Shown: positions 982-36,516 of the stretch, in pieces
Numbering within the stretch: position 1 is the stretch's first letter
Layout: each line of letters begins with the position of its first letter
Assembly: GCA_902200405.1 (NCBI GenBank)
Contig: CABIKN020000034.1
Location: 1-48,741 of the forward strand
Length of the DNA stretch: 48,741 bases
DNA from: Candidatus Roizmanbacteria bacterium
GTDB taxonomy: Bacteria > Patescibacteriota > Microgenomatia > UBA1406 > GWC2-37-13
Direction: 5' to 3'
Notes under the pieces: generated by a model
Seen by the model: only the letters and a program-made list of their open reading frames with translations
Database searches by the model: none
What the model was told of the DNA's origin: nothing
Position numbers and translations under genes: made by a program

Positions 982-1127
982 ACAAAGCTCCCCGTCAGCC
1001 GGAATCCTTTCGGATTCCCATAACCCTTTCGAGTTACGACCACGTTAGGTTAACTGAACAGGGAGCTCCTGTTTCCTAACGTGGATTATCTTCTTCCATG
1101 CTTAAATTACTTTAAGTTTAGGAAGAC
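982..1127 (-). ncRNA. Candidate structured 5' leader able to sequester the SD of the HTH gene
   Basis: Read on the minus strand, four stems follow each other. They are TCTTCC/GGAAGA enclosing CTTAAA/TTTAAG (1126-1092); a perfect 10-bp stem CCACGTTAGG/CCTAACGTGG (1084-1040) enclosing AACAGG/CCTGTT with loop AGCTC; TAACTC-GAAA-GGGTTA (1036-1021); and GGAATCC-GAAA-GGATTCC (1018-1001 region). The loop strand AGCTCCC (1067-1061) is exactly complementary to GGGAGCT (992-986), which contains the Shine-Dalgarno of the next gene, so a pseudoknot could block translation. It does not match a riboswitch class I know. The stems are seen in the sequence; function is inferred. Confidence 0.5.
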
Positions 1128-16439: not shown

Positions 16440-16727
16440 ATGAATACCTTTCAACCATATAAACCAAAAAACGAAAAGGAAAAATTTTTAGCTAAGGCCT
16501 TTTTAAAGTTAAAAAATGAACAGGACATGGCTAATTTCCTTCGCGATCTATTAACAATAAAAGAATTGGAAGAATTTTCTAATCGTTTAGAAATGGCGAG
16601 ATTATTAAAACAAGGAATGTCATATAAAGCTATCGCCAAAAAACTTAAAGTATCAACAACTACGGTTACGCGCACTGCTCATTGGTTATTTCACGGATGC
16701 GGGGGCTATGGAAAAGTGATAAAATAA
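16440..16727 (+). CDS. YerC/YecD family TrpR-related regulator
   Basis: A 95-residue protein of the TrpR-fold YerC/YecD family: FLRDLLTIKELEEFSNRLEMARLLKQGMSYKAIAKKLKVSTTTVTRTAHWLFHGCGGY. The helix-turn-helix (about 56-78) is intact, but the Trp-binding Arg-Gly-Ser of true TrpR (TRGS) is replaced by TRTA, so it should not respond to tryptophan. This contrasts with the true TrpR at 36223-36477. It sits 4 nt after the protease gene, and its 3' end lies just before the ECF sigma gene. Target genes unknown. Confidence 0.85.
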   Translation: MNTFQPYKPKNEKEKFLAKAFLKLKNEQDMANFLRDLLTIKELEEFSNRLEMARLLKQGMSYKAIAKKLKVSTTTVTRTAHWLFHGCGGYGKVIK

Positions 16728-23518: not shown

Positions 23519-24391
23519 ATGGGTATAAAGGTTGAGGCATCGGCTCCGGGAAAATTAATGCTTTTTGGCGAACACGCTGTAGTTTACAACTATCCGTGTA
23601 TTGTTACTACAGTTTCTTCAAGAATTTATGTTGAGGTAGAAAAAACATCAGGATTATTAAAAATTGACGCGCCGCAAGTCAAGAACGTCCGTTTTGTTGA
23701 AGAAACGCTTAAATTATTTAGTCAAAAATATAAAGTTGATAACAAAATTTTAGTAAAAACATATAGTGACTTTTCTTCACAATATGGTTTTGGATCGTCA
23801 TCAGCAGTCACCGTTGCTACAATCCATGCACTAGGCAAACTTTATAAAATCAAAATTTCAAAACAGGGGATTTTTGATTTAGGGTATAAAGTAGTACTAA
23901 ATGTTCAAGGGGTAGGAAGTGGATTTGATATTGCCTCAGCTATTTATGGAGGAACGATTTATTTTGTTACTGGTGGTAAAAAGATAGAACCGTTAACCGT
24001 CAAAAATTTGTCTTTGGTAATAGGATATTCTGGAGTTAAAGCAGACACTAGTAAATTAGTAAAAAATTTAAAACCGGATTTTAAAATTTTTGATCAAATA
24101 AAAAAAATAGTTGAAGATGTGAAGATATCTTTACTCAAAAGTGATTGGAAAACAACAGGAGAGTTAATGAATCAAAATCATCAGCTTCTACAAAAATTGG
24201 GAGTCAGCACACAAAAGCTAGATAAAATGTGTGAGGCTGCGATTACTTCTGGTGCATTAGGCGCAAAGTTGTCCGGAGCGGGTGGGGGGGACTGCATGAT
24301 TGCGTTAGTTTCAAAAGCTAAAAAAGAAGATGTTGAAAGTTCAATTGTTAATGCAGGCGGAGAAATTATTAATGTTAAAATTAATGTATGA
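23519..24391 (+). CDS. GHMP kinase, mevalonate kinase-like (second copy; candidate phosphomevalonate kinase)
   Basis: A 290-residue GHMP kinase: EASAPGKLMLFGEHAVVYNYPCIVTTV, ATP loop SQYGFGSSSAVTVATIHALG, VLNVQGVGSGFDIASAIYGG and GAKLSGAGGGDCMIALV. By sequence it resembles mevalonate kinase, but with another kinase just upstream and mvaD just downstream (4-nt overlap) it may supply the phosphomevalonate kinase step. I start at ATG 23519; the upstream in-frame extension is repeat-derived. An alternative is that one copy acts on mevalonate 3-phosphate or another isoprenoid phosphate. Confidence 0.8.
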   Translation: MGIKVEASAPGKLMLFGEHAVVYNYPCIVTTVSSRIYVEVEKTSGLLKIDAPQVKNVRFVEETLKLFSQKYKVDNKILVKTYSDFSSQYGFGSSSAVTVATIHALGKLYKIKISKQGIFDLGYKVVLNVQGVGSGFDIASAIYGGTIYFVTGGKKIEPLTVKNLSLVIGYSGVKADTSKLVKNLKPDFKIFDQIKKIVEDVKISLLKSDWKTTGELMNQNHQLLQKLGVSTQKLDKMCEAAITSGALGAKLSGAGGGDCMIALVSKAKKEDVESSIVNAGGEIINVKINV

Positions 24392-36091: not shown

Positions 36092-36118
36092 AAAAAAATC
36101 CTCCGCTTGAAGCAGAGG
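36092..36118 (-). terminator. Attenuator terminator of the trp leader
   Basis: On the minus strand CCTCTGCT-TCA-AGCGGAGG (36118-36100; 8 bp with one T-G pair) is followed by A and seven Ts (36098-36092). It lies about 30 nt before the trpB ATG. Its 5' arm (CTGCTTCA, 36115-36108) can instead pair with TGAAGCAG (36147-36140) at the end of the leader ORF, forming the antiterminator. Confidence 0.85.
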
Positions 36119-36144
36119 TTAAGTCATTCAAAAAGACGCCTGCT

Positions 36145-36195
36145 TCACCAGAGGTTGCTTGTCCACCAATTGTTTGAATTTATTTTGTTTTTCAT
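36145..36195 (-). CDS. trpL: trp operon leader peptide
   Basis: A 16-residue ORF, MKNKINSNNWWTSNLW, with adjacent Trp codons at positions 10-11 and a third at the end. A GAGAG ribosome-binding sequence lies just upstream of the ATG. The TGA stop is the first part of TGAAGCAG, the strand that pairs with the 5' arm of the terminator. A ribosome stalled at the Trp pair leaves this strand free to form the antiterminator; a ribosome that reaches the stop covers it and lets the terminator form. This is the classic trp attenuation layout, placed in front of trpB. Confidence 0.88.
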   Translation of the reverse strand: MKNKINSNNWWTSNLW

Positions 36196-36212: not shown

Positions 36213-36239
36213 AGGTCCGTCCTCATTTAGGACGGACCT
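36213..36239. other. Strong hairpin across the trpR stop codon
   Basis: AGGTCCGTCC and GGACGGACCT form a 10-11 bp stem around the loop containing the trpR TGA (minus strand). There is no T run after it, so it is more likely an mRNA-stabilising or processing hairpin between trpR and trpL than a terminator. Confidence 0.6.
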
Positions 36240-36477
36240 TAGAAAACCTGCCTAATCTTAATTCTCTCGATCCTCGCGTCACTGTTGCGACTCCAACTTT
36301 TAATCTTCTGGCAATCTCTTGATGGGGGAGGCCTTTTTTTATTAATTTGACGATTTGTAAACGAGTGACTATTTCGTCAAATTCACCAGGTGTCAAAATG
36401 CCTTTTAAAAAATCAAGCATTTCGGCACTGGTTTTATTTTTCAAAAAAGCTTCGACCAACTCCCCTACTTTGTTCAT
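36223..36477 (-). CDS. trpR: Trp repressor
   Basis: An 84-residue TrpR: FLKGILTPGEFDEIVTRLQIVKLIKKGLPHQEIARRLKVGVATVTRGSRELRLG. Compared with E. coli TrpR, the ligand-pocket residues Thr44, Arg54, Arg84 and Gly85 are matched by T29, R39, R68 and G69, and the GIATITRGS recognition-helix region by GVATVTRGS. It should bind tryptophan and DNA. Its own promoter overlaps a trp operator (36485-36498), which predicts autoregulation. The ATG at 36477 lies about 4 nt after the predicted transcription start, with no Shine-Dalgarno. The next elements downstream are trpL and trpB. Confidence 0.92.
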   Translation of the reverse strand: MNKVGELVEAFLKNKTSAEMLDFLKGILTPGEFDEIVTRLQIVKLIKKGLPHQEIARRLKVGVATVTRGSRELRLGRFSKVRPK

Positions 36478-36484
36478 AATTGGT

Positions 36485-36516
36485 ACTAGTGTACTAGTAT
36501 GCTATTAAAATGTCAA
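36485..36516 (-). promoter_or_regulatory. trpR promoter with overlapping trp operator
   Basis: On the minus strand TTGACA (36516-36511), a 17-nt spacer and TACACT (36493-36488) form a promoter. Across the -10 box lie two ACTAGT half-sites separated by 2 bp (36485-36490 and 36493-36498, in the context GTACTAGTGTACTAGTAT). This is almost identical to the E. coli TrpR operator core ACTAGTTAACTAGT. Binding there would block RNA polymerase. Confidence 0.88.

Follow-up and report, generated by a model that had tools for sequence, protein, structure and literature searches.

A probable trpL-type transcription attenuator between trpR and trpB2 in a Candidatus Roizmanbacteria genome, and related leaders in other CPR bacteria

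The sequence analysed here (hereafter the window) is a 48,741-nucleotide stretch of the genome of an uncultured Candidatus Roizmanbacteria member of the Candidate Phyla Radiation (CPR), and the interval between its trpR and trpB2 genes very probably holds a transcription attenuator of the trpL type that acts through a translating ribosome, carried within a single TrpR-repressed transcript. An earlier note on this DNA had proposed a trp attenuator in front of a lone trpB2. The attenuator is supported by folds in which a ribosome masks part of the leader and by the conservation of its tryptophan codons and competing stems in relatives. The gene is not alone, however: trpR lies directly upstream, and genes for an Asp/Glu racemase family protein, a SerK-like protein and an EamA-family transporter lie downstream.

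All parts of a classical attenuator can be read directly from the minus strand. The leader peptide ORF (36195 to 36145; ATG at 36195, stop TGA at 36147-36145) encodes MKNKINSNNWWTSNLW in 16 codons, with tryptophan at codons 10, 11 and 16, and begins 27 nucleotides beyond the trpR stop, from which it is separate. Strand 1, CCTCTG (36154-36149), is a weak partner of strand 2 and has strand 4 as an alternative partner. Strand 2, TGAAGCAG (36147-36140), begins at the leader stop codon itself, 21 nucleotides past the first Trp codon. Its exact complement, CTGCTTCA (36115-36108), lies within strand 3, CCTCTGCTTCA (36118-36108), which thus serves two structures: its positions 36115-36108 pair with strand 2 in the antiterminator, while 36118-36111 form the 5' arm of the terminator. 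The intrinsic terminator ahead of trpB2, CCTCTGCT-TCA-AGCGGAGG (36118-36100), has strand 4 (36107-36100) as its 3' arm and is followed by an A and a run of seven T (36098-36092), 28 nucleotides from the trpB2 start. The 16-codon ORF with its tandem and third Trp codons, and likewise the complementary strands and the seven-T terminator, had been placed correctly to the base in the earlier note. Rfam scans at gathering and at relaxed thresholds gave no match to a trp leader, nor any T-box (RF00230) match in the window. Elsewhere in the window, a LOOT RNA (RF03000) lies at 1001-1124 (minus strand; 77.4 bits, above the gathering score).

The transcript is expected to start at trpR (36477-36223, minus strand), which encodes an 84-residue Trp repressor family protein (PF01371, 65.1 bits against a cut-off of 27). 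Structures of E. coli TrpR align with the product (E about 5e-6), which scores under the cut-off of the TIGR01321 TrpR equivalog model. A putative promoter precedes the gene, with a -35 hexamer TTGACA (36516-36511), a 17-nucleotide spacer and a -10 hexamer TACACT (36493-36488); it matches the consensus at 10 of 12 positions in a scan that, taken alone, is no evidence of function. Overlapping the -10 hexamer is ACTAGTACACTAGT (36485-36498), by sequence a perfect E. coli-type trp operator in the trpR promoter. It shares its half sites with the trp operator of E. coli, ACTAGTTAACTAGT; it is the sole exact copy in the 1.18-Mb genome assembly, and even with one mismatch allowed only 0.01 matches are expected in the window. 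These elements point to dual control of the operon, by TrpR acting at the operator and by the attenuator. Two one-mismatch operator-like sites elsewhere in the genome, at 24047-24060 of the window and at G000:C16:194-207, are possible additional TrpR targets.

Other features of the trpR region deserve mention. The -10 hexamer ends 10 nucleotides ahead of the trpR ATG (36477-36493), which would make the trpR mRNA leaderless or almost leaderless. A perfect 11-bp palindrome, AGGTCCGTCCT-AAATG-AGGACGGACCT, spans the trpR stop codon (36213-36239); its 25-nucleotide core recurs unchanged at G000:C3:20757 and with a single difference at G000:C5:17333, and other palindromes occupy the equivalent place in three related loci (L002, L012 and L016). 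The palindrome looks like a small repeated element. The window has another TrpR-family gene (16440-16727, plus strand; PF01371, 67.8 bits), which we weighed as a candidate repressor and rejected as YerC-like; genes of its kind recur across the family.

Folding of the leader region yields several alternative structures. The 3:4 terminator has a predicted energy of -12.0 kcal/mol, the 2:3 antiterminator -9.5 kcal/mol and the 2:3 pairing combined with 1:4 -19.7 kcal/mol; the 1:2 stem has four pairs and only -2.7 kcal/mol, and is stronger in many relatives. In equilibrium folds with an assumed ribosome footprint reaching 12 nucleotides ahead of the A-site codon, a ribosome set at Trp-10 gives the antiterminator and one set at Trp-16 or at the stop codon gives the terminator, with Trp-11 borderline; this kind of fold is generally a weak test, as it missed the known switching of the E. 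coli leader. Under the same assumed footprint, strand 2 is free when a ribosome stalls at the tandem Trp codons, with the Trp-11 position borderline, and is covered when it reaches the stop. Both the masked folds and the permutation of matched pairs described below point to a mutually exclusive antiterminator that uses strand 3. When the folded leader region was tested against shuffles, the signal was weak (z -1.75), and a value of z -4.72 obtained with extra upstream sequence was dropped since the palindrome over the trpR stop produces it.

We therefore propose the following mechanism, in which the parts are read from the DNA and the events are predicted from them. When tryptophan is plentiful, TrpR would repress at ACTAGTACACTAGT; where a transcript is made nonetheless, the ribosome would pass Trp codons 10, 11 and 16, reach the stop and cover strand 2, so that strands 3 and 4 pair as the terminator and transcription ends short of trpB2. 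When charged tRNA-Trp is scarce, the ribosome would stall at Trp-10 or Trp-11 and leave strand 2 free to pair with the emerging strand 3, which would block the terminator and allow transcription of trpB2 and, probably, of the genes downstream. As a counterpoint, a ribosome stalling at the third Trp (codon 16) would favour termination. Ribosome-free RNA favours the antiterminator, so translation of the leader seems to be needed for termination; given the weak 1:2 stem, an untranslated leader is predicted to read through, unlike in E. coli.

This preference for the antiterminator without a ribosome would also suit a switch that senses translation of the leader in general, for example through coupling to trpR translation, rather than charged tRNA-Trp, as would the overlap of the leader start with the trpR stop, often as ATATGA, in 16 of the 51 CPR loci compared. 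We consider such a switch unlikely, since it would require no Trp codons, whereas these codons are kept at a fixed distance from strand 2 and the neighbours are a TrpR-controlled promoter and tryptophan genes. The distance from the first Trp codon to strand 2 has a median of 21 nucleotides (interquartile range 18-22) and falls within 16-26 nucleotides in 91% of loci against 23% in shuffles, although the loci share ancestry and such statistics are not fully independent. The E. coli leader gives 20 nucleotides by a similar measure, with a longer strand 3; a control that took the E. coli terminator arm alone as strand 3 was discarded, having given the wrong spacing, as strand 3 in E. coli starts upstream of the terminator.

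Relatives within the genus retain the arrangement while its sequence has changed. All same-genus loci with a readable region upstream of trpB2 have trpR, then a Trp-rich leader, then a terminator, and they differ in their flanks, their stems and their type of leader (NNWWTSNLW followed by the stop versus WWxxxYPRSGW..). The Trp codons and competing stems, whose conservation the earlier note had named as a test, are kept with altered stem sequences, and trpR and the operator are conserved as well. This bears on whether the window carries a former attenuator that is decaying in its lineage, with a terminator and antiterminator that no longer respond to tryptophan. The weak 1:2 stem and the read-through favoured by ribosome-free RNA would fit such decay, and trpR is followed by trpB without a terminator in some relatives (L155, L151 and L128); yet the window has kept its Trp codons, the position of the stop, and strands 2 and 3 intact, as have near relatives with other flanks (L003, L007, L012, L016, L111 and L029), which makes decay very unlikely.

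A ribosome-mediated attenuator is further supported by comparison across the CPR. A short ORF with near-tandem Trp codons (W..W) lies within 300 nucleotides behind trpR in 31 of 88 non-redundant CPR trpR genes, compared with a mean of 4.6 and a maximum of 11 in dinucleotide shuffles and with 5 on the reverse strand; behind YerC-type paralogues it is found once in 18 cases. Outside the genus of the window, loci with a terminator include 18 W..W leaders against 0.7 expected. A looser count that accepts any leader containing one Trp proved permissive (null 14.5 of 47); we therefore base the claim on near-tandem Trp codons, pairing and spacing. In the 51 loci, leaders pair with the 5' arm and loop of their own terminator at a mean of -12.9 kcal/mol, compared with -8.7 kcal/mol (sd 0.32) for swapped arms and a minimum of -10.1 kcal/mol in 5000 permutations. 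Both the spacing and the matched pairing hold among distant CPR with unrelated stem sequences. That the hairpin is a plain trpR terminator, with a coincidental Trp-rich ORF and complementary strand and a trpB2 promoter of its own, is extremely improbable: a terminator behind a small regulator gene is ordinary and a promoter-like site (9/12) lies just inside trpB2 at 36040-36013, but the 51 loci show leader Trp codons, matched pairing and the spacing far more often than chance would give.

The gene that the attenuator would control, trpB2 (36063-34756, minus strand), encodes a TrpB-like PLP enzyme of 435 residues, assigned to the TrpB2 class by its family score (TIGR01415, 638.1 bits; cut-off 518.85). 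Among solved structures it is nearest to tryptophan synthase beta chains, including 6hul and 4qys, and its closest named relatives are from Candidatus Roizmanbacteria. Three genes that probably belong to the same operon follow on the same strand: the Asp/Glu racemase family gene (34735-34034; PF01177); a compact SerK-like gene of 130 codons (33977-33585; NF053625, E 3.7e-20, far under the cut-off); and the EamA-family transporter gene (33588-32710; PF00892). The racemase gene is likewise downstream of trpB2 in L004, L006 and L111. In distant CPR it appears to have relatives directly behind trpR (L181, L182 and L207), once with a WW leader, hinting at a tryptophan-related role. The SerK-like protein matches both ends of the free serine kinase 5x0b, without its middle, and its gene also adjoins trpB2 in L008, L010, L035, L037, L038 and L039. 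O-phospho-L-serine is a reported substrate of TrpB2 enzymes (Busch 2014, cited in PMC11917138), and the SerK-like neighbour, though it lacks the SerK middle, could supply it.

The earlier note had found no trpA, trpC, trpD or trpE in the window, and for trpA, trpC and trpE this holds for the whole assembly, which is 93% complete: model searches found no TrpA, IGPS (TrpC) or chorismate-binding (TrpE-type) enzyme there, while each model detects genes in all 14 control genomes. We infer that TrpB2 makes tryptophan from indole taken up from outside. In another genome of the genus (G021), trpE-type, trpC, trpB1 and trpA genes lie on the contig that bears the end of its trpB2. Since this relative retains a fuller trp set, the locus in the window may be the remnant of a fuller operon.

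Beyond the genus, the trpR-leader-terminator arrangement precedes several different genes. These are trpB2 in L035 (Magasanikbacteria), L219 and L221; trpB1 in L191, as also within the genus in L029; TrpE-type genes in L160, L161, L204 and L244; trpS in L195 and L218; and a racemase gene in L207. Payload names are a reading of the translations, with TrpB and family-level TrpE hits from family searches. One genome (G016) has two trpR-leader-trpB2 loci (L004 and L111) with differing leader types. In 4 of the 51 loci (L005, L158, L171 and L208), the Trp codons are in the C-terminal tail of TrpR itself, just before the antiterminator and terminator. In L171, for instance, TrpR ends in RFSQRWWYSIYPRSGW followed by the stop, and the terminator segment CCGCTGCG is the partner of strand 2, CGCAGCGG; in L005, the leader pairing is no better than in shuffles. 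Leaders that overlap the repressor gene or are fused to it are a possible new variant. In L242, the last codon of TrpR is a Trp codon, and the CCTCCTTCAA that comes next could base-pair with TTGAAGGAGG, the likely ribosome-binding site of a trpS-like gene; this looks like coupling at the level of translation rather than transcription. Other loci have T-box sequences: a probable one upstream of trpB2 in L036 (Gribaldobacteria; 2637-2840; 51 bits, E 2.6e-10, under the gathering score of 93), and a T-box-like sequence downstream of trpR in L201.

The attenuator proposed here can be compared with three known systems. Like trpL of the E. coli trpLEDCBA operon, it has a short leader with tandem Trp codons at positions 10 and 11, a competing antiterminator and terminator, a strand 2 that starts at nearly the same distance from the first Trp codon (20 nucleotides in E. 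coli, 21 here) and an operator with the same half sites. Unlike trpL, it sits behind trpR within the same transcript, has trpB2 as its only trp gene, has a weak 1:2 stem with read-through favoured in ribosome-free RNA, and starts strand 2 at the stop codon itself; the stem sequences are unrelated. The nearest arrangement is trpRBA of Chlamydia trachomatis, in which trpR is linked upstream of trpB under a TrpR-controlled promoter. This organism salvages indole with a reduced genome, as the one studied here would, and a leader has been proposed in its trpR-trpB interval (PMC6504234, PMC7755916). However, chlamydial trpRBA keeps trpA, and an iron-dependent repressor acts within the trpR-trpB interval. 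The chlamydial TrpL, annotated with 59 residues and non-consecutive Trp codons, was judged a poor attenuator (PMC7755916) and is doubtful, whereas the window has clear tandem Trp codons and matched stems. The T-box riboswitch (RF00230) is likewise a sensor of charged tRNA, and in another CPR genome one probably lies ahead of the trpB2 of L036; sensing in the window would differ in relying on translation of a leader ORF.

Leader-peptide attenuation was described in 2010 as a mechanism known from Proteobacteria and Actinobacteria, to which Firmicutes had just been added (PMC2965389); in Chlamydia it remains putative (PMC7755916, PMC6504234). Our CPR-aimed literature searches, with sparse coverage of subscription papers, turned up no account of trp leader attenuation there. 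The mechanism is classical, and in this phylum apparently undescribed.

A broader reading, to which we give about even chances, is that Trp attenuators in CPR are appended to the repressor gene: one promoter-operator serves the whole unit, ribosomes pass from trpR to the leader, the payload is swapped between lineages, and termination requires coupled translation where the 1:2 stem is weak. If this is true, an attenuator with a weak 1:2 stem would read both the supply of tryptophan and whether trpR is being translated. The payload genes, including the racemase, the transporter and others of unknown function, are likely to be related to tryptophan. The same codon-to-stem spacing of 20-21 nucleotides across an uncultured, small-genome phylum suggests tight coupling of transcription and translation, for which trp leaders in CPR offer a handle from sequence alone. 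The genome examined here, which is without most of the tryptophan pathway, appears to retain two layers of tryptophan sensing on one gene.
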